Shown in pieces: positions 17,843 to 42,353 of a stretch of DNA of 64,000 nt (positions are counted from its first letter, which is position 1; the number at the start of each line of letters is the position of its first letter). Below the pieces are notes generated by a model. That model was not told where the DNA came from. It did no database searches and was given only the letters and a program-made list of their open reading frames with translations. A program made the translations under genes and the position numbers. The stretch covers positions 1,674,001 to 1,738,000 of the forward strand of contig NZ_CP026514.1 of the NCBI RefSeq assembly GCF_002953935.1. The letters are read 5' to 3'. The DNA is from Arthrobacter sp. PGP41. GTDB taxonomy: Bacteria; Actinomycetota; Actinomycetes; Actinomycetales; Micrococcaceae.

Positions 17843-17859
17843 TTCTACGGGACGTAGTA
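17843..17859. promoter_or_regulatory. BlaI-type operator (distant copy)
   Basis: TTCTAC-GGGAC-GTAGTA has the same 6-5-6 layout as the three operators before cydA (TTCTAC-N5-GTAGAA), with one mismatch in the outer right half. It overlaps the -35 region of the membrane-protein gene at 17472-17822, a position suited to repression. Confidence 0.6.
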
Positions 17860-29217: not shown

Positions 29218-31326
29218 GTGGCACCAAGTTCTGATTACACTGCCCGGCACCTGTCTGTACTGGAGGGCCTCGAGGCTGTCCGCAAGCGCCCGGGCATGTA
29301 CATCGGTTCCACCGACTCCCGCGGACTCATGCACTGCCTCTGGGAGATCATTGACAACTCCGTGGATGAGGCCCTGGCCGGGTTCGGCCACGACATCAAG
29401 ATCATCCTCCACGCCGACAACTCCGTGGAGATCCATGACGACGGCCGCGGCATCCCTATCGACAAAGAACCCAAGACCGGCCTGACGGGCGTCGAAGTGG
29501 TCTTCACCAAACTCCACGCGGGCGGCAAGTTCGGCGGCGGCTCCTACACGGCCTCAGGCGGCCTGCACGGCGTCGGCGCATCCGTGGTCAACGCGCTGTC
29601 CTCCCGCCTCGACGTCGAAGTGGACCGCGGCGGCAAGACCTACAAGATGTCCTTCCGGCGCGGCGAGCCCGGGCGCTTCAAGGACGTTGGCTCCAGGATC
29701 GACCCCGCCGCACCCTTTACCCCGTTCGTGGACGATTCCGTCCTGGACGTGGTGGGCAAAGCAAAGCGCGGGGTCACGGGCACCCGGATCCGGTACTGGG
29801 CCGACCGGCAGATCTTCACCCCGGATGCAAAGTTCTCCTATGACGAACTGGCGGCCCGTGCGCGCCAGACCTCCTTCCTGGTACCAGGCCTCAAACTGAC
29901 GGTGCGGGATGAGCGGAGGTTCCCGGGAACACCCGGGGAGGCAGGAGTCCACGAAGAAGTCTTCCACCACGACGGCGGCATCTCCGAATTCGTCGAGTTC
30001 CTCGCCGCCGATCCCGCCGTCACCGACGTCTGGCGGCTGCACGGCTCCGGAAAGTTCAAGGAGACAGTTCCCGTCCTGGACGAGCGCGGGCACAGCCAGC
30101 TGGCGGAGGTGGAACGGGACTGCGAGGTGGATGTCGCGCTGCGCTGGGGCATCGGCTACGACAGCACCGTCCGGAGTTTCGTCAACATCATCTCCACCCC
30201 CAAGGGCGGAACGCACCAGTCAGGCTTTGAGCAGGCCCTGGTCAAGACGTTCCGCAAAGCGGTGGAAACCAACGCCCGGAAGCTCAAGGCGGGCAATGAC
30301 AAGATCGAAAAGGACGACATCTTCGCGGGCCTGACCGCCGTCCTGACGGTACGGCTTGCCGAGCCCCAGTTCGAAGGCCAGACCAAGGAAATCCTGGGCA
30401 CCTCGGCGGTGCGCGCCATCGTGTCCAAGGTGGTGGAACAGGAGATCAGCGCCAAGCTCGGTTCCGCGAACCGGAATGACAAGGCCCAGTCCGCGCTGCT
30501 GCTGGAAAAAATCGTCAACGAGATGAAGTCGCGCATCTCGGCGCGGGTGCACAAGGAAACCCAGCGGCGCAAGAACGCCCTGGAAACATCCTCGATGCCC
30601 ACCAAGCTTGCCGACTGCCGCACGGACGACGTCGACCGTTCCGAACTGTTCATCGTGGAAGGCGACTCAGCACTGGGCACCGCCAAGCTGGCCCGGTCCT
30701 CGGACTTCCAGGCCCTGCTGCCCATCCGCGGCAAGATCCTCAACGTCCAGAAGGCGTCCGTGGGGGACATGCTCTCCAACGCCGAATGCGCAGCCCTCAT
30801 CCAGGTGGTGGGCGCTGGTTCCGGCCGCAGCTTCGACATCAGCGCCGCCCGCTACGGCAAAGTGATCCTGATGACGGACGCCGACGTTGACGGTGCCCAC
30901 ATCCGTACGCTGCTCCTGACGCTTTTCTTCCGCTACATGCGCCCCATGATCGAAGACGGCCGCGTTTTCGCCGCTGTCCCGCCGCTGCACCGGGTGGAGG
31001 TCATCAACGCGGGCCAGAAGGCGAATGAAATGATCTACACGTACTCGGAGGCGGAACTCCACGTCCTCCTGGCCCGCCTGGCCAAGGAAGGCAAGCGGTA
31101 CAAGGAGCCCATCCAGCGCTACAAGGGCCTGGGCGAAATGGATGCCGAGCAGCTGGCCGAGACCACCATGGACCCGCGGCACCGCACCCTGCGCAAGGTG
31201 GGCATCGAGAACGCCAAGCAGGCAGAGGAAATCTTTGACCTGCTGATGGGCTCGGACGTCTCGCCGCGCAAGGACTTTATCATCGCCGGCGCCGCCAGCC
31301 TGGACCGGGAGCGCATCGACGCCTGA
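29218..31326 (+). CDS. parE: Type II topoisomerase subunit B (DNA gyrase/topoisomerase IV)
   Basis: 702 residues from a GTG at 29218, with GAAGGAG upstream. The GHKL ATPase domain shows IIDNSVDEA, DDGRGIPID and GGKFGGGSYTASGGLHGVGAS. The Toprim domain has IVEGDSALGTAKLARSSDF, RGKILNVQKA and the metal-binding TDADVDGAHIR. The C-terminus has KGLGEMDAEQLAETTMDP. EGDSALG replaces the usual GyrB EGDSAGG, and no gyrA neighbours it. A partner A subunit is encoded 8.4 kb downstream at 39757-42276. This fits the second topoisomerase pair (ParE/ParC) of Micrococcaceae rather than the replication-origin gyrase, an inference from context. Confidence 0.88.
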   Translation: MAPSSDYTARHLSVLEGLEAVRKRPGMYIGSTDSRGLMHCLWEIIDNSVDEALAGFGHDIKIILHADNSVEIHDDGRGIPIDKEPKTGLTGVEVVFTKLHAGGKFGGGSYTASGGLHGVGASVVNALSSRLDVEVDRGGKTYKMSFRRGEPGRFKDVGSRIDPAAPFTPFVDDSVLDVVGKAKRGVTGTRIRYWADRQIFTPDAKFSYDELAARARQTSFLVPGLKLTVRDERRFPGTPGEAGVHEEVFHHDGGISEFVEFLAADPAVTDVWRLHGSGKFKETVPVLDERGHSQLAEVERDCEVDVALRWGIGYDSTVRSFVNIISTPKGGTHQSGFEQALVKTFRKAVETNARKLKAGNDKIEKDDIFAGLTAVLTVRLAEPQFEGQTKEILGTSAVRAIVSKVVEQEISAKLGSANRNDKAQSALLLEKIVNEMKSRISARVHKETQRRKNALETSSMPTKLADCRTDDVDRSELFIVEGDSALGTAKLARSSDFQALLPIRGKILNVQKASVGDMLSNAECAALIQVVGAGSGRSFDISAARYGKVILMTDADVDGAHIRTLLLTLFFRYMRPMIEDGRVFAAVPPLHRVEVINAGQKANEMIYTYSEAELHVLLARLAKEGKRYKEPIQRYKGLGEMDAEQLAETTMDPRHRTLRKVGIENAKQAEEIFDLLMGSDVSPRKDFIIAGAASLDRERIDA

Positions 31327-31369: not shown

Positions 31370-32359
31370 TCAGCCCAGCAGGCCCGGCACCACCAGCAGG
31401 GCGGTGGGCAGCGCCAGCAGCAGCACGGATCCGGCCATCACCATGTTCCGGACCGGCGCCGGCAGCTCAGGCTGGGGTGAGAGCAGCCTGCTGACCCGGG
31501 AGGCCGTGGTGCGGGCCGGGTCCGGGCCGGGCGTGCCGGCGGCCTCGAGCCCGGACAGGGCCAGGCTGGAAGCTGCGGGACGGAGTTCCGCTCCGCCGGT
31601 GTTCCCGGCCGATCCGCTGGCCACGATGGCGATTGCCTTGATCAGCGTGGCCTTGCTCTCGGTTTTGAGCGCGACGTCGTCGGCCAGCATTTCGATCAGC
31701 GAATTCACCGCCTCCTGGGCAAGGCGGGTGGTGGGCAGCCATGGCAGCGCTTGCCGCCAGGCGGCAAAAGCCCACAGCAGCAGGTGGTGCCGTTGGTTCA
31801 GGTGCGCATTCTCATGGATCAGGACCGCCCGGAGTTCTGCCGGTTCAAGGGCCGCCATCAGGCCATCCGAGAGGACCGTCACCGAGCGGGCGCCGCCGGG
31901 AAGGCAGTAGGCCACGGGGGAGTCATGGCTGATAACGAGCGTTCCCGTTCCTTCAGCGGACGGTGAGGCCAGGAGGGCCAGCAGTTCGCGGTGGCGCCGG
32001 CGCTGGCGCTCAATCTTGTAGTAGGTCAGCAGCAGGGTGAACACCAGGTGGGCGGTAAGCAGGGCGGCGGCGGACAGGGCAAAGATGTGCCAGAATCCCA
32101 AAGCCGTGGTGGGGGCATTGAAGAGCACCATTCCGGCCAGCGCCCGAAGCCCCGCAATCAGGTTGTCGCCGATAGGCTCCAGGCCGTAGACCAGCATGGC
32201 GCCGATCATCGACAGGCCGCCGGCCAGTGCGATCGCCTGCCACAGGATCATGGCAGTGAACGGCGAACGGGCGGGCCACTTCGCCCGCGAGAGGAGGATA
32301 GGCACCGGCCACGCCAGGACTATCGCAAGGACCGCCAGCAGGTATGAGGCCCAGAACAT
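31370..32359 (-). CDS. M56 family membrane metallopeptidase (BlaR1/MecR1-like)
   Basis: 329 residues with four or five membrane helices: residues 3-23, 36-58, 72-112 (two) and the last about 305-327. The zinc site is HENAH (His182, Glu183, His186) with a likely third ligand in LIEMLADD (Glu223). BlaR1 and MecR1 share this protease part but add a penicillin-binding domain, which is absent here. In this family the protease cleaves the partner repressor on a signal. The start lies 6 nt after the blaI-like stop, so the two form one operon. The pair faces the cytochrome bd genes, suggesting it senses a respiratory or envelope signal rather than beta-lactams (inference). Confidence 0.88.
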   Translation of the reverse strand: MFWASYLLAVLAIVLAWPVPILLSRAKWPARSPFTAMILWQAIALAGGLSMIGAMLVYGLEPIGDNLIAGLRALAGMVLFNAPTTALGFWHIFALSAAALLTAHLVFTLLLTYYKIERQRRRHRELLALLASPSAEGTGTLVISHDSPVAYCLPGGARSVTVLSDGLMAALEPAELRAVLIHENAHLNQRHHLLLWAFAAWRQALPWLPTTRLAQEAVNSLIEMLADDVALKTESKATLIKAIAIVASGSAGNTGGAELRPAASSLALSGLEAAGTPGPDPARTTASRVSRLLSPQPELPAPVRNMVMAGSVLLLALPTALLVVPGLLG

Positions 32360-32365
32360 GGTGCG

Positions 32366-32752
32366 TTACAGGTGGCCCAGCAGTTTGCGCAGCGTCTCGG
32401 CCTCGCCCTCGGAAACGGACCCAATGAAGCGTGCCAGCACGGCCTCGCGGTCCGGCGCGGACCCCAGAACTTCATGCATCAGCTCAGCGGTGTGGTCCTC
32501 ACGGCTGGACACCGCCTGGTAGCGGTGCGGGCGGGTGCCGCGTTCGCGCTCCACCAGGCCCTTCTTTTCCAGCCGGGACAGCACGGTAAGGACGGTGGTG
32601 ACGGCAAGTTCCTTGCCTTCATGGCCTGCAGAGCCGTCCTGTCCGGCCGACGTCCGCGCCAGCCGGTCCCGCAGTGTATTAGCGGTGGCTGCTTCCTGGC
32701 CCGCCCAGAGCAGATCCATCACTGCCCGTTCCAGTTCACCAAGACTAGCCAT
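32366..32752 (-). CDS. blaI: BlaI/MecI/CopY family transcriptional repressor
   Basis: 128 residues. The winged-helix DNA-binding region (LGELERAVMDLLWAGQEAAT, then AVTTVLTVLSRLEKKGLVERE and the wing RGTRPHRYQAV) is followed by a short helical dimerisation end. A Gly/Ser-rich insertion (about residues 34-47) sits before the recognition helix. AAGGAAA precedes the ATG. Family members bind inverted repeats containing TAC...GTA and are inactivated by proteolysis. The three palindromes at 32853-32983 fit this and lie between this gene and cydA, so it probably represses both its own operon and cydABDC. Confidence 0.9.
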   Translation of the reverse strand: MASLGELERAVMDLLWAGQEAATANTLRDRLARTSAGQDGSAGHEGKELAVTTVLTVLSRLEKKGLVERERGTRPHRYQAVSSREDHTAELMHEVLGSAPDREAVLARFIGSVSEGEAETLRKLLGHL

Positions 32753-32828
32753 TGCACTTTTCCTTTGTTCCCCGAGCCACCGCGTGGAAGCGGCGGTGGC
32801 TGCATGCTTCGCTTCAACTACAGGTTCT

Positions 32829-32834
32829 AATTTA
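32829..32834 (-). promoter_or_regulatory. Candidate -10 (TAAATT) of the blaI-M56 operon
   Basis: On the minus strand TAAATT lies 17 nt downstream of TAGAAA, which would be the -35 and overlaps operator O1 (32853-32869). Repressor on O1 would block this promoter. It is a hand-read promoter. Confidence 0.35.
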
Positions 32835-32852
32835 CCCGGTTTTCACGGGACT

Positions 32853-32869
32853 TTCTACGTTGGGTAGAA
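32853..32869. promoter_or_regulatory. BlaI-type operator O1
   Basis: A perfect 17-bp palindrome, TTCTAC-GTTGG-GTAGAA. It is the copy closest to the blaI start and overlaps its candidate -35. Confidence 0.75.
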
Positions 32870-32922
32870 CACTTGGCCTGCCGCTTCCCTTGCCTGCGGC
32901 TCCAGGGGCGTGGAAGCTGGTT

Positions 32923-32952
32923 TTTACACCGCTGCCGACGTTGTTCTACACT
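32923..32952 (+). promoter_or_regulatory. Candidate cydA promoter
   Basis: TTTACA (32923-32928), an 18-nt spacer and TACACT (32947-32952). The -10 lies inside operator O2, and O3 follows just after the expected transcription start, a classic repression layout. The leader would be about 55 nt. Confidence 0.45.
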
Positions 32953-32960
32953 CGGTAGAA
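32944..32960. promoter_or_regulatory. BlaI-type operator O2
   Basis: A perfect 17-bp palindrome, TTCTAC-ACTCG-GTAGAA, 23 bp centre-to-centre from O3, about two helical turns. It covers the candidate cydA -10. Confidence 0.78.
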
Positions 32961-32966
32961 GTTCAG

Positions 32967-32983
32967 TTCTACAAAACGTAGAA
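32967..32983. promoter_or_regulatory. BlaI-type operator O3
   Basis: A perfect 17-bp palindrome, TTCTAC-AAAAC-GTAGAA, 31 nt before the cydA start codon. Together with O2 it forms a tandem pair. Confidence 0.78.
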
Positions 32984-33014
32984 GATCTGCATTTCGCTGA
33001 CACGAGGGGCCGCC

Positions 33015-34628
33015 TTGGACGCTATGGACGCGCTGGAAATCGCACGCTGGCAATTCGGCATCACCACGGTTTACCACTTCATGATGGTTCCGCTGACCAT
33101 CGGCCTTGGCCTGGTTGTGGCCGTCATCCAGACCGCCTGGCACCGCACTGGCAACCCCGAATACCTGCGGATGACCAAGTTCTGGGGCAAGCTGTTCCTC
33201 ATCAACTTCATCATGGGCGTGGCCACCGGCATCGTCCAGGAGTTCCAGTTCGGTATGGCCTGGAGCGAATACAGCCGGTTCGTGGGCGATGTTTTCGGCG
33301 CGCCGCTGGCACTGGAGGCGCTCCTCGCCTTCTTCGTGGAATCCACGTTCCTGGGCTTGTGGATCTTCGGCTGGAAACAGCTCAAGCCCGGCATCCACCT
33401 GGCCTGCCTGTGGATAGCCGTTATCGGTTCCGTCTTCTCCGCCTACTTCATCATTGTCGCCAACAGCTGGATGCAGCACCCGGTGGGTGTGGAGATGATC
33501 GACGGCCGGCCCGTCATGACTGACGCCTGGGCCGTCTTCACCAACAACACCGCCCTCGTTGCCGTGCCCCACACACTGTTCGGCGCCCTGGCGGTGGCGG
33601 GCGGCTTCCTCCTAGGCATCGCCTGGTACCACCTGTGGCGGAGGCGGCGCGACGGCGTGGACACCGTGGGTGCCGACGGCAAGGTGGTCCCCGGCGAAGC
33701 AGCAGGTATACCCGGCCGTGACGTGAATGACCACAAGGTCTGGCTCCGGTCCCTGCGGATCGGTGCCGTGGTTGCCATGATCTCCTTCGCCGGGACTGCC
33801 CTCACCGGCGACCTCCAGGGCAAATTGATGTTCGAGCAGCAGCCCATGAAGATGGCCGCGGCAGAAGCTGCCTGCCACGACGGCACCGGCTTCTCGGTCC
33901 TCAGCATCGGCAACATCGGCTCGCAGAACTGCGACGACATCGTGGCCCTGATCGAGGTTCCGGGCATCCTCTCCTACCTGGCGAAGGGTGACTTCACCAC
34001 CGAAGTCAAGGGCGTCAACAGCCTGCTGCCCGAATACCGGGAGAAGTACGGCACGAACCTGCCGGACAATCCGATCTACGGTGAACGCGCCGGGCAGGAG
34101 ATCGACTACCTGCCGGTCATGGAGGTGACCTATTGGGGCTTCCGCATGATGATCGGCTTCGGCGGGCTTGCAGCCCTGGCAGCGCTGGTGGCGCTGTGGA
34201 TCACCCGGAAGGGAACCGTTCCCGAGTCTTCGTGGCTCATGCGGCTGGCGGTCTTCGGCATCCTGGCCCCGTTCGGCGCCAACGCCGCCGGCTGGATCTT
34301 CACGGAAATGGGACGCCAGCCTTTTGTGGTGGCCCCCAATCCCGACCCCAGCGGCATCGACCAGGTGTTTATGTTCACCGCCGCCGCCGTTTCGCCGGGG
34401 GTCTCGGCGGGAGAACTGCTGGCATCACTGGTAACGCTGACGGCAGTTTACGCAGTCCTGCTGGTGGTTGAAGTCAAGCTGCTGGTCAAGTACATCCGGG
34501 GTGGAGTAGTTTCCGCCATGCCGGAACTGGTGCACGCCCCCGTAGACGAGGACGGGGACGCCACGCCCGGACCGGGCGGCCCGGGCGCGGGGAAACCTGC
34601 CGACGACGTCCTGGCCTTCGCGTACTAG
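33015..34628 (+). CDS. cydA: Cytochrome bd oxidase subunit I
   Basis: 537 residues from the TTG at 33015, which has GAGGGG at good spacing; an ATG three codons later (33024) is the alternative. The start MDALEIARWQFGITTVYHFMM includes the haem b595 ligand region (His in VYHFM). ATGIVQEFQFGMAWSEYSRFVGDVFGAPLALEA and EMGRQPFVV, the conserved GRQP, are present. Subunit I carries haems b558, b595 and d and oxidises quinol with reduction of O2 to water in the membrane. The Q-loop is of the short type. It begins a cydA-cydB-cydDC operon under three BlaI-type operators. Confidence 0.97.
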   Translation: MDAMDALEIARWQFGITTVYHFMMVPLTIGLGLVVAVIQTAWHRTGNPEYLRMTKFWGKLFLINFIMGVATGIVQEFQFGMAWSEYSRFVGDVFGAPLALEALLAFFVESTFLGLWIFGWKQLKPGIHLACLWIAVIGSVFSAYFIIVANSWMQHPVGVEMIDGRPVMTDAWAVFTNNTALVAVPHTLFGALAVAGGFLLGIAWYHLWRRRRDGVDTVGADGKVVPGEAAGIPGRDVNDHKVWLRSLRIGAVVAMISFAGTALTGDLQGKLMFEQQPMKMAAAEAACHDGTGFSVLSIGNIGSQNCDDIVALIEVPGILSYLAKGDFTTEVKGVNSLLPEYREKYGTNLPDNPIYGERAGQEIDYLPVMEVTYWGFRMMIGFGGLAALAALVALWITRKGTVPESSWLMRLAVFGILAPFGANAAGWIFTEMGRQPFVVAPNPDPSGIDQVFMFTAAAVSPGVSAGELLASLVTLTAVYAVLLVVEVKLLVKYIRGGVVSAMPELVHAPVDEDGDATPGPGGPGAGKPADDVLAFAY

Positions 34629-34655
34629 CCCGATACCAAGCAGAGGAAACACAGA

Positions 34656-35705
34656 ATGGAACTGCTCCCAACCATCTGGTTCATCGCCATCGCCGTGCTG
34701 TGGACCGGGTACCTCTTCCTCGAGGGCTTCGATCTCGGCGTCGGAATGCTCATGAAGCTCTTCGCCCGCAACAACACCGAACGACGGGTCCTGCTCAACA
34801 CCATCGGCCCGGTCTGGGACGGCAACGAGGTTTGGCTCCTGACCGCCGGCGGCGCCACCTTCGCTGCCTTCCCGCTCTGGTACGCCTCACTGTTTTCGGC
34901 GCTCTACCTGCCGCTGCTGGTGGTGCTCGTTGCCCTGATCTTCCGCGCGGTGGCCTTCGAATACCGCGGCAAGGTGGACACGGATCAGTGGCGTGCCCGC
35001 TGGGACTGGGCCATCGCCCTGGGCTCCTTTTTCGCGGCTTTCGGAGTGGGCGCCGCGCTGGCCCTCACCACCACCGGGCTTCCCCTGAATGCGAACGGCG
35101 ACCGTGAGGGCGGTCCGTTGGCCTGGTTCAGCGGCTACGCCGTGCTGGGCGGGCTGGCCGTGGCGGGTTTCTCGCTGCTGCATGCGCTGGCCTTCCTGGC
35201 CCTGAAGACTGACGGCGACGTCCGGCACCGGGCCCGCCGGTGGTTCGTGCGGCTGCTGCCGGTGCTGTTGCTGCCCATCGCCGCGTGGGCGCTCAGCATC
35301 CAGTTCCTCGACGGCAAGCCCTGGACCTGGGCCCTGGTCATCCTCGCCGTTGCCGCGGCAGCCGCAGCCTGGGTCCTGGCCCGCAAGGCAGCCGAAGGCA
35401 AGGCATTCCTGGCCCTCGGCGCCTTCCTGGTACTTGGTACTGCGTGCATATTCGGCGCAGTATTCCCCGTGGTGCTGCCCTCTACCTTGGACAGCGCCTT
35501 CGACCTGACCGTTTCAAACGCCTCCTCCTCGGACTACACCCTTGGCCTTATGAGTGTCGTGGCAGCCCTCGGCCTCCCCCTGGTCATCGCATACCAGGCA
35601 TGGACCTACTGGGTCTTCCGGAGGCGTGTGAGCGCGGCACACATCCCGGAGGCGCACAGCTTCCTGCCGGCCATCGCCGCCAGGGCCTTCACCACGAAGG
35701 GCTGA
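34656..35705 (+). CDS. cydB: Cytochrome bd oxidase subunit II
   Basis: 349 residues with about nine membrane helices. The family-typical start LLPTIWFIAIAVLWTGYLFL and EGFDLGVGML is followed by RVLLNTIGPVWDGNEVWLLT, which contains the conserved GPVWDGNEVWL. AGAGGAAA precedes the ATG. Subunit II has no haem-binding role of its own in most bd oxidases but is needed for a stable complex with CydA. It ends 1 nt before the cydDC start. Confidence 0.97.
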   Translation: MELLPTIWFIAIAVLWTGYLFLEGFDLGVGMLMKLFARNNTERRVLLNTIGPVWDGNEVWLLTAGGATFAAFPLWYASLFSALYLPLLVVLVALIFRAVAFEYRGKVDTDQWRARWDWAIALGSFFAAFGVGAALALTTTGLPLNANGDREGGPLAWFSGYAVLGGLAVAGFSLLHALAFLALKTDGDVRHRARRWFVRLLPVLLLPIAAWALSIQFLDGKPWTWALVILAVAAAAAAWVLARKAAEGKAFLALGAFLVLGTACIFGAVFPVVLPSTLDSAFDLTVSNASSSDYTLGLMSVVAALGLPLVIAYQAWTYWVFRRRVSAAHIPEAHSFLPAIAARAFTTKG

Positions 35706-35706
35706 C

Positions 35707-38700
35707 ATGCGGCCACGTTTCCCGCCCGGTCCATCCACCCGCTCCGCCATCTATGTCCTGGGACTGCTGGCCGCGCTCAAGGCGCTGTCTCTTGTGCTCA
35801 TGGGGCAGGCGGTGGCATCGGCCCTCGCCGGAATGGTGACGGGAGACCCGGGCTGGGCCGGAGAGGTCCCCCTGGGGCTGGCCGGCGCGGTCCTGCGCTC
35901 CCTGACGGTCTGGGGACAAGCCGTTGCATCCCGCCGGGCCGCCCTTGGCATCAAGGAGGAGCTCCGCGCCGGGCTCCTTGAACGGGCTCTGCGCAACGGC
36001 GTAAGGGAGACCGGACCGGCCGACGGCGGACTCGCCGTCCTGGCAACCCGCGGCCTGGACGCCCTGGACAGCTACTACACCCAGTTCCTCCCCGCCCTGG
36101 TGAACTGCGCCGCGATTCCGCTGCTGCTCGGGGCACGGGTCCTCTACGCCGACTGGGTCAGCGCAGTGGTGGTTGTCCTGACGGTGCCGCTCGTGCCGCT
36201 GTTCATGGTGCTGATCGGCCGGTACACCGAGGACAGCGTCCGCGAGGCGCAGGCCTCCCTCGCAAGGCTCTCCGCCCACATGCTGGAGCTCGCCAAAGGC
36301 CTGCCCGTCCTGGTGGGACTCGGCCGGGCCACGGCGCAGCGCAAGGCCCTGGAAGAGATCTCGGAGGAATACCGCGCACGCACCATGGGAACCCTGCGCA
36401 CGGCCTTCCTGTCGGCGCTCGCGCTGGAACTGATCGCAACCATCTCCGTCGCTGTGGTGGCGGTGTTCATCGGCGTCCGCCTGGTGCACGGCGACATGCC
36501 CCTCGAGGCAGGCCTGCTTGCCCTGATCCTGGCGCCGGACTGCTATCTTCCGCTGCGGGAACTGGGCACCGCCCACCACGCCAGCGACGATGGCCGGGTT
36601 GCCCTCGCCGCGGCCACCGCTGTCACGGATGCTCCCGAGCCACGCCCGCTTCCTGCAGCCAAGGCAGGAAGGCCCGGGGCGCCGGTCACTGTCACGGACC
36701 TTGCCGTGAGCTACGGCGGAAGGGCGGGGCCCGCCGTCGGCCCGCTCACGTTCTCGGCGCCCCAAGGCAGGATCACCGCCCTCGACGGCGCCAGCGGCGC
36801 AGGAAAGAGCACGGTCCTCGGCGTCCTGGCCGGGACCATTGGCGACGGCGCCGGCACCACGGTAACCGGCACGGTCCGGGGCCTTGACCGTACCGTCCTG
36901 GCCTGGGTGCCGCAGCACCCCGCGATGCTCGCGGACACCGTCCTTGACGAGGTGCTGCTCTACCTTTCCGGGGACATCCAGGGCGCCCGCGTCCAGGCAG
37001 GCGCGGAAGCCGCCGCACGCGCCTGCCTGGCCCGCGCTGCCGCCGGCCACCTGGCCCAACAGCACCCGGCGGAACTGAGCCCGGGCGAGCTGCGCAGGGT
37101 CGCCCTGGCCCGGGGGCTGGCAAGGATCGAGGCCGGCGCCACCGTCCTGTTGCTCGACGAGCCCACCGCACACCTGGACGACGCCTCGGCGATGGCTGTC
37201 GAGGAGGCCATCAGGAAGCTCCGGGGCCGGGTGACGGTGATCCTGGTGGCGCACAATGAACGCACCCGCAGCCTCGCGGACCATGTGGTGCCGGTGGCCG
37301 GACCTGGCGGGACAGCACCCCCCGCCGCGCACCCGACGGATGCATTCCGGGCAAAACCTGCTGCCGCGGCCGGCTCCGCCGTCGGCGAAGAGACCTACGC
37401 CCCGGCGGGCACGGCTGCCGGCGCCGCAACCCCCGCCGCCGCCGAACCAGCCGACAGCCGCGCCACCGCCCGACTACTCGCAGTGCTCCTTGCGCCGGTC
37501 CGCGGCAAGTTCGCGGCCGCCGCGGTGGTGGGCACGCTGGCGGCTGTGTTCGCCGTGGCATTGTCCGGCCTGTCGGGCTGGCTGATCATCCGGGCCAGCG
37601 AGCAGCCGCCCATCCTGTACCTGCTGACCGCGATCGTGGGGGTGCGGTTCTTTGGAATCGGGCGGGCCGTGCTCCGATACTGGGAACGGCTCCTCCTGCA
37701 TGATGCGGTGTTTTCCGCCCTCACCCGGCTCCGCGGACAGCTATGGGAGTCGCTGAGCCGCAGGGCGCTCGCACTCCGCCGCCTGCTCCAGGGCGGCAAC
37801 GTCCTGGGATCGGTGATTGACGACGTCGATACTGTCCGCGACCTCCTGCCCCGCGTTGTGCTGCCGCCTGCTACCGCCCTCGCCGTCTCCTTGCTGGCAC
37901 TGGCCACCACCGGCCTGCTGGTGCCGGCCGCGCTCCCGGCCGTCCTTGCCGCCGCCGCGGCCAGCCTGTTCCTGGCGCCCGCCGTCGCACTGTGGGCTGA
38001 CGGCAAATCTGCCGGCGCCGAACAGATGCTGAGGTCCGGAGTTCTGCGCCGCACTTCCGCAGCCCTCGATGCCAGGGCCGATCTGCACGCCAACAGCGTC
38101 GCCTTCCCGGTCCTTGCCGGACTGCGCGCGCAGGACCGAAGTGCCACCCGGGCGTCCCGGCGCTCAGCCTGGGCGGACGGACTGGGACACGCCATCACCA
38201 CCGCTTCGTGCTGTGCGGCGGCTTTCGCTGCCGCCTGGCTGGCGGCTCCCGCGGTGCTCGAGGGCCGCCTCGAGCCCGCCACTGCGGCGGTGGTGGTGCT
38301 GCTGCTCCTCGCTCTGGTGGAACCTTACGCAGCGATGACGACGGCGGTACGCCAGTTCCCGGCGCTTCGGACGGTCATGCGGCGCGTCGCCGCGTCGGGC
38401 GCGCTGGACGGCGCCGCCCCCGATTCCGGCGACGCCCCCGATTCCGACGGCGGCACTGCCGACGGCCTGCAGGAGGTGCCTCCCCGGCGCAACGGTGCTC
38501 CCGGCGTCGAACTCGAAAACCTTGCCGCGGCCTGGCCGGGCGGGGCGCCGGCGTTTACCGGGCTGGACGCGGTTGCGGAACCGGGGCGTTGGCTGGCAGT
38601 CACCGGGCCCTCCGGCTCCGGAAAGTCCACCCTGCTCTCGGTCCTGCTGGGCTTCCTTCCGGCCGCCGCGGGGACTGCCCGGGTGACCGGCCGGGCCGCG

Positions 38701-39237
38701 TGGTGCCCGCAGGAGGCCCACCTCTTTGACTCGACCATCCGCGGCAACCTGCTGCTGGGCAAGCCTTCCTCCGGGGATCGGGCTGCCGGCGGCGAGGAAG
38801 CCGGCGGCGACGCCGAACTTCGGGATGCGCTTGCTTCCGTTGGGTTGTCCAGCCTGGTGGAGCGGCTGCCGGCGGGCCTGGACACCCGGATCGGTCCCGG
38901 AGGGGCGTTCCTGAGCGGAGGGGAGCGCCAGCGCCTGGTCGTGGCCCGCACGCTAATGACGGGCGCGGAGGTGATCCTGCTGGATGAGCCGACGGCCCAC
39001 CTGGATGCGGAATCGGCACAGGCCATGCTGGCGGACCTCCGCGCGGGGCTGCGGAACCGCACTGTGGTGCTGGTAACCCACAACCCGGCTGACATCGCCC
39101 CCGGAGACGCCCGCCTGGTGCTTGGCCCCGGCTCGGGGAACACAGGACGTGCGCCGGCGCCTGCTGCTGCCCCGACCTATGCCTCGACTGCGTATGCGCT
39201 TACCGCGGCAGAGGGGGATCAGCCGTCCACGTCGTGA
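35707..39237 (+). CDS. cydDC: Fused CydD-CydC thiol reductant ABC exporter
   Basis: 1176 residues combining CydD and CydC. Domains in order: first six-helix membrane domain (about 1-300); first ATPase with Walker A GASGAGKST (from 361), signature LSPGELRR and Walker B VLLLDEPT; a Pro/Ala-rich linker (about 540-585); second membrane domain (to about 880); second ATPase with Walker A GPSGSGKST (from 967), signature LSGGERQR and Walker B VILLDEPT. The first signature departs from LSGGQ, the second is normal, so the two ATP sites may not be equal. CydDC exports cysteine and glutathione-type thiols in E. coli and is needed to assemble bd oxidase. One nt separates it from cydB. Confidence 0.95.
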   Translation: MRPRFPPGPSTRSAIYVLGLLAALKALSLVLMGQAVASALAGMVTGDPGWAGEVPLGLAGAVLRSLTVWGQAVASRRAALGIKEELRAGLLERALRNGVRETGPADGGLAVLATRGLDALDSYYTQFLPALVNCAAIPLLLGARVLYADWVSAVVVVLTVPLVPLFMVLIGRYTEDSVREAQASLARLSAHMLELAKGLPVLVGLGRATAQRKALEEISEEYRARTMGTLRTAFLSALALELIATISVAVVAVFIGVRLVHGDMPLEAGLLALILAPDCYLPLRELGTAHHASDDGRVALAAATAVTDAPEPRPLPAAKAGRPGAPVTVTDLAVSYGGRAGPAVGPLTFSAPQGRITALDGASGAGKSTVLGVLAGTIGDGAGTTVTGTVRGLDRTVLAWVPQHPAMLADTVLDEVLLYLSGDIQGARVQAGAEAAARACLARAAAGHLAQQHPAELSPGELRRVALARGLARIEAGATVLLLDEPTAHLDDASAMAVEEAIRKLRGRVTVILVAHNERTRSLADHVVPVAGPGGTAPPAAHPTDAFRAKPAAAAGSAVGEETYAPAGTAAGAATPAAAEPADSRATARLLAVLLAPVRGKFAAAAVVGTLAAVFAVALSGLSGWLIIRASEQPPILYLLTAIVGVRFFGIGRAVLRYWERLLLHDAVFSALTRLRGQLWESLSRRALALRRLLQGGNVLGSVIDDVDTVRDLLPRVVLPPATALAVSLLALATTGLLVPAALPAVLAAAAASLFLAPAVALWADGKSAGAEQMLRSGVLRRTSAALDARADLHANSVAFPVLAGLRAQDRSATRASRRSAWADGLGHAITTASCCAAAFAAAWLAAPAVLEGRLEPATAAVVVLLLLALVEPYAAMTTAVRQFPALRTVMRRVAASGALDGAAPDSGDAPDSDGGTADGLQEVPPRRNGAPGVELENLAAAWPGGAPAFTGLDAVAEPGRWLAVTGPSGSGKSTLLSVLLGFLPAAAGTARVTGRAAWCPQEAHLFDSTIRGNLLLGKPSSGDRAAGGEEAGGDAELRDALASVGLSSLVERLPAGLDTRIGPGGAFLSGGERQRLVVARTLMTGAEVILLDEPTAHLDAESAQAMLADLRAGLRNRTVVLVTHNPADIAPGDARLVLGPGSGNTGRAPAPAAAPTYASTAYALTAAEGDQPSTS

Positions 39238-39756: not shown

Positions 39757-42276
39757 TCAGGCAGTCCCGGCGGGATCAGGCCAGGCCATGGCGGGACCCA
39801 CCACATCCACCGGCTGGGAGAGCGGGACGCCGGATCCGTCACGCCGGCCATGCTCCTGCGGCAGGGACCTGGCGACCCCGGCTGCCGAGGCCGCCTTGGC
39901 GGGGCCGTGGCCTGCCCAAGCGAGCAGCAGCGTGTCCTCGCCCTTCAGGAAGCGGTGGGCCCGCACACCGGCCGTTGCACGTCCCTTCACGGGGTACTCG
40001 GAGAATGCCGTCACCTTGGCCGTGCCGGGGGCGGTGCCGGGAAGGGCGCCGGTGGTCCCCGCGATGGTCACCACCACGGCGGCCTCGTCCTTCGGCTGGA
40101 TGGCGCCGAAATACAGCACCCGGTCCCCGGGCGCCAGCTTGATGCCCGCCATGCCGCCCGCCGTACGGCCCTGCGGCCGCACGGTTGCGGCACCAAACTT
40201 CAGCAGCTGGGCCTGGCTGGTCAGGAACACCAGCTCGGCATCATCAGCTCCCGCCGGCACCACGTTGACCACAAAGTCCTTGTCCTTCAGGGAAATGACG
40301 TCCCAGTCTTCCCGGTTCAGCGGATAGTCCGGCTGCACGCGCTTCACCACTCCCTGGGCAGTTCCGATGGCCAGCACTTCGTCCAGCGGGACGAACGCCA
40401 CCAGGGTTTCCCCCTTCACCAGGGTCAGGAAGTCCTTGGCCGGCACCCCGCCGGCGAGGTTCGGCAGGCCCGAGACCGGGGGCAGGACCGGCATGTCCAT
40501 CACCTGGAGGCGCAGCATACGGCCCTGCGAGGTAACCGCGGCGATCTCGCCCCGCGCCGAGGTCTTGACCACGGACGTGTACACATCGTGCTTGGCCCGC
40601 GGACCGGCCTCCGCCAGCGGCTCCTGGTTGCTGGTGCGGGCCACCTGCCCGGACGCGGTCAGGATTGCCCAGCAGGGGTCGTCCGCAATTTCCAGGGCCA
40701 GCGGCGCGGCCTTGCCCTTCTTTCCCGCGGCCAGGGCGAGGTCGGCGGCAACTGTTGGGGCCACGGCCTCTGATTCCAGCAGGACCGTCCGCCGCGGCGT
40801 GCCGTGCTGCTCGGCGATGGCGCCCAGTTCGTCGGACACCAGGGTGCGCAGCCGCTCCTCTGAGCTCAGGATGGCCTCCAGCTCCGCTATCTCGCGGCGG
40901 AGCTCATCCTGTTCCTTCTCGAGCTCAATCCGGGAGTACTTGGTCAGCTGGCGCAGCCGGAGCTCCAGGATATAGTTCGCCTGGATTTCCGTGAGGTCGT
41001 AGATGGACATCAGCCGGGCCCGGGCGGCGGCGGCCTCATCCGAGGACCGGATGATCTGGATGACTTCGTCGATGTCCACGATGGCGATGAGGAGGCCCTC
41101 CACCAGGTGGAGGCGGTCCTTCTTCTTCCCCAGCCGGAACACGGTCCGGCGGCGCACCACGTCGATCCGGTGGTTCACGTAGACGGTGAGCAGCTGCACC
41201 AGGCCCAGGGTCTGCGGCTGGCCGTCCACCAGGGTGACGTTGTTGATGCCGAAGGAGTCTTCCATCGGCGAGTAGCGGTAGAGCTGCTGCAGGACGGCGT
41301 TGGGGTTGAAGCCGTTCTTGAGCTCGATGACCAGCCGCAGGCCGTGCTTCCGGTCGGTCAGGTCGACGATGTCGCTGATGCCCGTCAGCTTCTTGGCATT
41401 AACGGCGTCCTTGATCTTCTCGATGACCTTCTCCGGGCCCACCATGTAGGGGAGCTCGGTGACCACCAGGCCGGTCCGGCGCGCGGAAAGCTGCTCGATT
41501 TCCACCTTGGCCCGGGTCTTGAAGGACCCGCGCCCGGTGGCGTAGGCGTCGCGGATGCCGTCCAGGCCCACAATCCGCCCGCCGCTGGGCAGGTCCGGGC
41601 CGGGTACGAAGCGCATGAGGTCATCAAGCGTCGCGTCCGGGTTGGCGATCAGGTGCCGCGCGGCGGAGATGACCTCCACGAGGTTGTGCGGGGCCATGTT
41701 GGTGGCCATGCCGACGGCGATGCCGGTGGCGCCGTTGACCAGCAGGTTGGGGAACGCTGCCGGCAGGACGTCCGGCTGGGTCAGCTGGTTGTCGTAGTTG
41801 GGGACAAAGTCCACCACTTCTTCATCGAGATGGTCTGTCAGCGTGAGGGCGGCGGCGGCCAGCCGTGCTTCCGTATACCGCGGAGCCGCAGGGCCGTCGT
41901 CGAGCGAGCCGAAGTTACCGTGCCCGTCAATGAGCGGCAGCCGCAGCGAGAAGTCCTGCGCCATGCGCACCATGGCGTCGTAGATGGCGGTATCGCCGTG
42001 CGGGTGCAGCTTGCCCATGACCTCGCCCACCACGCGGGCGCTCTTCACGTGGCCGCGGTCCGGACGCAGGCCCATGTCGCTCATCATGTAGAGGATGCGG
42101 CGCTGCACCGGCTTGAGCCCGTCGCGGGCGTCGGGAAGGGCCCGCGAGTAAATCACCGAATACGCGTACTCCAGGAAGGACCCCTCCATTTCGGAGGTGA
42201 CATCGATGTCCACGATGTTCTCCGTGTAGGGGGTGCTGTCTTCCACGGTGGGGGCTGGGCTTTGGCGGCGGGCCAT
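39757..42276 (-). CDS. parC: Type II topoisomerase subunit A (DNA gyrase/topoisomerase IV)
   Basis: 839 residues from the ATG at 42276 (MARRQSPAP), with AGAAGGA upstream; an upstream codon at 42309 is less likely. The breakage-reunion domain shows [27 protein letters not shown], the quinolone-region [17 protein letters not shown] and the active tyrosine Tyr134 in RYTEARL. The C-terminal region carries beta-pinwheel blades ([18 protein letters not shown]). The usual GyrA Ser at the quinolone position is Thr (Thr96). With the B subunit at 29218-31326 it probably makes the second topoisomerase (IV-like) that decatenates chromosomes; the ParC label is inferred from that pairing. Confidence 0.88.
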
Positions 42277-42353
42277 GGGGTTGGTAAATCCTTCTGGTGT
42301 GCTGTGCAATCGGTTTATTGTGCGCGAGCGGCGGTGCTGCGGGAGATTTTGGC

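Follow-up and report, generated by a model that had tools for sequence, protein, structure and literature searches.

A BlaI repressor and a BlaR1-like M56 protease as a probable heme and respiration switch in Arthrobacter sp. PGP41

Described BlaI systems and the Arthrobacter locus

In Staphylococcus, the BlaR1-BlaI and MecR1-MecI systems combine a repressor, which recognizes TAC...GTA inverted repeats, with a membrane zinc protease. Another repressor, Rex of the Streptomyces type, couples cydA to the respiratory state; we take TTGTGAA-N6-TTCACAA to be the consensus of the Rex-type operator. In M. tuberculosis, BlaI (Rv1846c) is accompanied by BlaR (Rv1845c), an M56 protein without a penicillin-binding domain, and mycobacterial BlaR is described as lacking a beta-lactam sensor (PMC5473688; this and the papers cited below were available as excerpts). 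The same excerpt, citing Sala 2009, places M. tuberculosis BlaI at the cyd and ATP-synthase promoters, and that of PMC12565901 reports that BlaI binds Rv1303-atp in EMSA and represses it. For M. tuberculosis, an association of BlaI with the cyd and atp promoters, the latter mentioned in the initial annotation of our locus, is therefore already in the literature. There is no agreed signal for BlaR proteases of this kind, mycobacterial or other. A respiratory or heme regulon of BlaI in Micrococcaceae was not found in the literature searched, whose scope left subscription papers (such as Sala 2009) largely outside, nor in the excerpts of PMC11561320, PMC10581053 and PMC7924339. What is new here is a predicted heme/respiration regulon, its conservation, the joint loss of sites and BlaI, and the operator dialects.

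Herein, we analyzed a window of 64,000 nt, positions 1674001-1738000 of the single-contig 4.27-Mb genome of Arthrobacter sp. PGP41; Arthrobacter and Pseudarthrobacter were the nearest named relatives when compared by BlaI. The initial annotation had described blaI and a BlaR1-like M56 gene without a penicillin-binding domain as divergent from cydA-cydB-cydDC, and the gene coordinates and family profile matches bore this out (Table 1). The gene order was a gyrB/parE-type gene, the M56 gene, blaI, a 262-bp intergenic region, cydA, cydB, a fused cydDC and a gyrA/parC-type gene. By family, the cytochrome bd operon is complete, with CydA, CydB, CydD and CydC all present. The TTG start of cydA was supported by the Shine-Dalgarno spacing and by alignment. 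The cluster is thus flanked by topoisomerase genes, at 29218-31326 (gyrB/parE-type) and 39757-42309 (gyrA/parC-type).

Table 1. Features of the blaI-cyd locus (positions within the window)
Feature	Positions	Strand	Evidence
M56/M48-type membrane zinc protease, BlaR1-like, 329 aa	31370..32359	-	HENAH motif; PF01435 38.6 bits (cut-off 20.3)
blaI, BlaI/MecI-type repressor, 128 aa	32366..32752	-	PF03965 (Penicillinase_R) 75.8 bits (cut-off 22.6)
Candidate -10 of the blaI-M56 operon, TAAATT	32829..32834	-	by eye; poor -35 would fall in O1
Operator O1, TTCTAC-GTTGG-GTAGAA	32853..32869	.	perfect palindrome
Candidate cydA promoter, TTTACA-N18-TACACT	32923..32952	+	promoter scan; -10 inside O2
Operator O2, TTCTAC-ACTCG-GTAGAA	32944..32960	.	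perfect palindrome
Operator O3, TTCTAC-AAAAC-GTAGAA	32967..32983	.	perfect palindrome, 23 bp from O2
cydA, cytochrome bd subunit I, TTG start	33015..34628	+	PF01654 504.9 bits
cydB, cytochrome bd subunit II	34656..35705	+	PF02322 and TIGR00203 over cut-off
cydDC fusion, ABC exporter needed for bd assembly	35707..39237	+	TIGR02857 (12-528) and TIGR02868 (593-1127), both over cut-off

The M56 protein scored 23.7 bits against PF05569, below the cut-off of 31, and a domain search of the whole protein found no penicillin-binding domain. The motifs HExAH and EMLADD were invariant in 27 M56 sequences, that of the window among them. The AlphaFold model was middling (mean pLDDT 67.4). The top five Foldseek rows were five S. 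aureus BlaR1 entries, with weak scores, and the transmembrane-plus-protease part of BlaR1 was among the best fold matches. The locus resembles the Staphylococcus systems in its repressor/zinc-protease pair and its TAC...GTA repeats. It differs in that BlaR1 and MecR1 carry an extracellular penicillin sensor, which the M56 protein lacks, and in its candidate targets, which are respiration and heme genes. The same genome encodes a second PF03965 (BlaI-like) protein (G000:C1:555966-556121, L026), which scored 26.2 bits, just over the cut-off of 22.6, and could act on some of the sites described below.

Operators at cydA and their dialects

The three perfect palindromes of the initial annotation were all found at their places between blaI and cydA, and when up to two mismatches to TTCTAC-N5-GTAGAA were allowed, the window held four matches, where shuffled sequence would give 0.25. 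A promoter scan of positions 32700-33050 returned a single sigma-70-like site, and its -10 falls inside O2, as had been proposed; O3 indeed lies just downstream of O2 and this -10. The further proposal that O1 covers the blaI -35 is only plausible, since TAAATT was picked by eye, its -35 is poor and the scan did not call a promoter on the blaI side. We then aligned 16 intergenic regions (the window, Arthrobacter, Pseudarthrobacter and Paenarthrobacter). O1, O2 and O3 formed the longest invariant blocks and the block around TAAATT was largely conserved; the cydA -35 was not. Across the 58 named loci with three sites, position 3 of the O2 spacer was always T, as a TANNNT -10 requires, and the O2-O3 distance was 23-26 bp. 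From their positions, we expect a repressor on O2 to shut off the cydA promoter, one on O3 to act at the start region and one on O1 to act on the blaI side.

The initial annotation had proposed a search for the palindrome upstream of cydA in other Micrococcaceae genomes. Among 80 named loci (the best 80 of 577 confirmed), 75 had a divergent blaI/cydA pair with two (16 loci) or three (59 loci) exact sites. In the remaining five, cydA was not beside blaI and one site lay upstream of blaI. The M56 gene was found in all 80, and a parE-type gene stood beside it in 78. In the wider order, BlaI matched in 63 of 149 genomes; 21 of 21 loci from other families among the best matches had cydA beside blaI, 12 of them with exact sites of the window's type (dialect A). 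A cydA search matched 105 of 158 genomes at class level, and 77 cydA loci were examined among the matches listed, mostly the best full-length one per genome. Divergent blaI-M56 accompanied 14 of the 72 loci outside the order, all in families f38 (8/8) and f45 (6/11); an adjacent blaI was absent from the other 58 and from the 5/5 in-order loci examined.

The loci of f38, f45, f7 and f14 carried TACKAC-N5-GTMGTA (dialect B) instead of dialect A. We compared the operators with the BlaI recognition helix in 95 loci, a set weighted to the window's own genus. Dialect A alone was present in 71 loci, dialect B alone in 21, neither in 3 (one of which is a wrongly cut fragment) and both in none. The helix was of the type A[VLPAT]TT..TVL[ST]RLE with dialect A and AYTTVMTV[LM]DRL with dialect B. 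Helix and operator agreed in 91 of the 95 loci and were mixed in none; three had no site and one dialect-A row had no readable helix. On a tree in which two badly cut rows (L093 and L128) had long branches, one to two changes of dialect were needed, so many independent switches were dropped as a possibility. Given that the tree needs about one switch, the agreement of helix and operator amounts nearly to n = 1.

The sole solved chain found for the window's BlaI was 2g9w (E 7e-16), which is labelled conserved hypothetical in the PDB and which we take to be M. tuberculosis BlaI (Rv1846c). In family f22, BlaI shared 71-93% identity with the printed part of 2g9w and an HExxH frame lay downstream in 10/10 genomes; we therefore treat f22 as Mycobacteriaceae. 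Their dialect-B sites lay upstream of cydA in 8/10 and of blaI in 7/10 genomes, and the start of cydA is uncertain in one of the two cydA misses (L377). The Mycobacteriaceae differ from the window in that blaI was not beside cydA in any of the 10 genomes examined, in the operator dialect and in the helix, AYTT[VI]MTVLQRL.

Like BlaI as read here, Rex is a repressor that ties cydA to the respiratory state. The Rex-type operator marked 10 of 11 cydA loci in family f37, whereas it was absent from all 80 named Micrococcaceae loci. This fits the contrast with Rex-controlled bacteria drawn in the initial annotation. The best BlaI homologue in f37 had no HExxH frame just downstream (11/11). Rex control of cydA in the window was rejected, because the Rex-type operator had no match there at up to three mismatches. 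Control by BlaI would explain how the bd oxidase is regulated in a family without a Rex-type site at cydA.

Operators elsewhere in the genome and the family

The Arthrobacter genome held eight exact sites in 4.27 Mb, compared with about 0.04 expected from base composition and three matches to a reversed-pattern control. Five lay outside blaI-cyd, upstream of a flavohemoglobin gene (hmp), hemQ-hemH-hemC, a yceI/histidine-phosphatase pair, a PNPOx-like gene and a small membrane protein gene. For hmp, the Pfam globin and reductase domains were over cut-off and the NCBIfam flavohemoprotein model scored 316 bits, below its cut-off of 432. HemQ matched its family over cut-off, and the small membrane protein matched none. 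The yceI and histidine-phosphatase genes diverge around their site, and either one may be the target. One-mismatch sites lay upstream of sucC, qcrC and the atp operon, in which the genes for ATP synthase A and C chains come after a Cg1360-type ATP-synthase-associated gene (36.9 bits, cut-off 40). The one-mismatch sites at window position 17843 and at G000:C1:2185249 and 1254638 were left out of the regulon. In this and three more genomes of the genus, all 19 sites outside blaI-cyd, 14 of them from the three further genomes, fell at the same five places. The sites at hmp, hemQ, the yceI pair and the small membrane protein gene were present in 4/4 genomes and that at the PNPOx-like gene in 3/4.

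Across 80 family genomes, we counted 377 exact sites and 34 matches to the reversed pattern. A chance origin of the palindromes is ruled out by the window, genome and family counts against their controls. The 73 genomes with BlaI (E <= 0.001) had a median of five sites and a minimum of one; the seven without it had 0, 0, 0, 0, 0, 1 and 0 (Mann-Whitney p 7e-6, which ignores relatedness). cydA was searched in 12 genomes, those of the four low-site genera. Three of them (G065, G073 and G127) had neither cydA nor BlaI, and two (G062 and G095) had cydA without BlaI and without a palindrome at cydA. Of the genomes with one exact site, five carried it at cydA and all five have BlaI (G070, G100, G124, G103 and G120; the first three only a distant one, E about 1e-10). 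In the sixth, G118, which has no BlaI, the site was not at cydA, and cydA contains an in-frame TAG (L160). In G092, also without BlaI, cydA was reduced to a 29-residue match (L161). cydA thus looks decayed in two of the three g3 genomes, and BlaI is absent from all three.

One could suppose that BlaI mainly regulates itself and M56, that the sites near cydA merely reflect the shared intergenic region and that cydA is otherwise regulated. It is true that O1 lies close to blaI and that one site upstream of blaI is kept in the five named loci where cydA is not adjacent. However, O2 and O3 overlap the cydA promoter region, other sites precede hmp and hemQ, and the window has no Rex-type operator. 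Moreover, sites are kept at cydA where blaI lies elsewhere: in G064 and G094 (genus g5), in which blaI-M56 and cydA are on different contigs and both keep sites, in genus g11, and in the Mycobacteriaceae. We regard this explanation as very unlikely.

Similar targets appeared in other genera. Among eight other-genus genomes (with six of seven sites covered for G130), an exact site lay at hemQ in seven and at hmp, qcrC and the small membrane protein gene in three each. In two of the eight, it preceded a group III truncated-hemoglobin-like gene, which had no Pfam or NCBIfam match; one of the two genes was compared with solved structures and matched at E 1e-6. Genus g12 had 13-15 exact sites per genome. 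We covered every site of G071 (15) and G068 (10) and, for both G101 and G125, the first three; in this set, sites lay upstream of ctaB, SURF1, ctaC, a ResA-like redoxin gene and divergent hemA/hemE. The atp-associated gene was downstream of a site in G068, sdhC lay 242 bp downstream of a site, and a CopC gene followed a site in another family genome (L071). In 30 family genomes, a one-mismatch atp-side site was found at 8 of the 15 loci having the full-length neighboring WecA-like gene, and a qcrC site in only 10/30 genomes with up to two mismatches and in 8/30 with up to one. In relatives, a number of sites lie ahead of genes that have no evident tie to respiration (those for isocitrate lyase, an NTP transferase, a universal stress protein and ABC/HTH pairs), and further ones have no identified gene downstream.

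Several proteins without an assigned family recurred. A membrane protein of about 120 aa (L019:3132-3500; relatives L162, L174, L178 and L201) is a recurring regulon member in several genera; the genome's own copy has no Pfam or NCBIfam match, and it is possibly a new respiratory accessory protein. In G117 and G091, an exact site belongs to the gene for a 115-aa protein (L179:2078-2425 and L184:2127-2474), and a protein similar to it by eye adjoins a site in L068. In addition, an ABC transporter ATPase gene has a site in four genera (L203, L216, L220 and L199) and is divergent from an HTH regulator gene in L203; its locus, we presume, resembles a heme A/cytochrome assembly locus.

Proposed role of BlaI and M56

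The co-directional blaI and M56 genes diverge from cydABDC across three candidate operators that span the shared promoter region. Copies of this predicted operator also lie ahead of genes for heme synthesis, NO detoxification and the respiratory chain, and their occurrence follows that of BlaI across genomes. Based on these features of the genomes, BlaI is probably a repressor of respiration and heme genes and BlaI-M56 a heme/respiration switch; binding and repression by BlaI are very likely, and M56-driven loss of BlaI is likely. Weighing against this reading are the second PF03965 protein, the incomplete recurrence of the qcrC and atp sites, the sites at genes without an evident respiratory tie, the distant BlaI of G070, G100 and G124, the single dialect switch, the PF05569 score and middling model of M56, and the many class-level cydA loci that have no blaI beside them. 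The control of cydABDC by BlaI and M56 through these operators, as suggested in the initial annotation, is thus supported by the conserved layout, by the sites that follow BlaI presence or stay at cydA with blaI elsewhere, and by the M. tuberculosis BlaI reported at cyd and atp promoters. Its scope, a switch of the bd oxidase only, was too narrow, since the sites outline a predicted regulon in which genes for heme synthesis and for NO detoxification stand beside those of the main respiratory chain.

In the mechanism we propose, the cydA promoter would be held off by BlaI dimers bound at O2 and O3, and blaI-M56 would be limited by one bound at O1. When respiration or the supply of heme fails, a signal in the membrane would activate M56; candidates are an over-reduced quinone pool, NO, cyanide and a shortage of heme. 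The activated protease would then cleave BlaI. Its loss would free cydABDC, hmp and hemQ-hemH-hemC, with a weaker effect on the atp operon and qcrC.

The trigger might be narrower, namely NO or some other poison of respiration that M56 or a partner detects, with a core regulon for NO/cyanide defence (bd oxidase, flavohemoglobin, truncated hemoglobin and heme resupply). The sites at hmp, in every genus genome and in three of the eight others, and those at the truncated-hemoglobin-like gene would suit such a trigger. However, ctaB, ctaC, SURF1, hemA/hemE and atp as targets in relatives point to respiration generally, and the domain search saw no NO-binding domain in the M56 protein. We consider the narrower trigger possible, although rather unlikely.

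We also weighed the classical role, in which BlaI-M56 responds to beta-lactams or to damage of the cell wall, and induction of cyd belongs to a response of the envelope. The homology of BlaI and M56 favors it, and the excerpts of PMC12565901 and PMC5473688 describe M. tuberculosis BlaI as a regulator of blaC, unlike the respiration and heme targets here. Treatment of M. tuberculosis with amoxicillin-clavulanate induced blaI-blaR and cydAB but lowered ATP-synthase genes (PMC5473688, excerpt). Against this role also stand the absent penicillin-binding domain, the topoisomerase and cyd genes as neighbors, and the regulon, which has no beta-lactamase or penicillin-binding protein among the targets given a family name. 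We judge it unlikely for this locus. The amoxicillin-clavulanate response nevertheless counts against a purely respiratory reading, as does SenX3-RegX3, also reported as a cydAB regulator in M. tuberculosis (PMC5874750, excerpt).

A broader idea, on which we are inclined to some doubt, is that BlaI-BlaR in actinobacteria originally monitored respiration or heme from the membrane rather than beta-lactams. The M56 protein without a penicillin-binding domain would read a ligand such as menaquinol, heme or NO in the membrane, and the pair would control the bd oxidase, heme synthesis and bc1-aa3/ATP synthase as one regulon across several families. The conserved blaI-M56/cydABDC unit and its regulon suggest what signal to seek, with a harmless soil bacterium as the model, and the bd oxidase is linked to tolerance of respiratory inhibitors. 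In M. abscessus, clofazimine raises cydABDC and ATP-synthase genes together (PMC8765290, excerpt). Finally, blaR was essential by TnSeq with heme or hemoglobin as the iron source and not in the other four columns of the table excerpted from PMC7058343, which is an independent pointer to heme.
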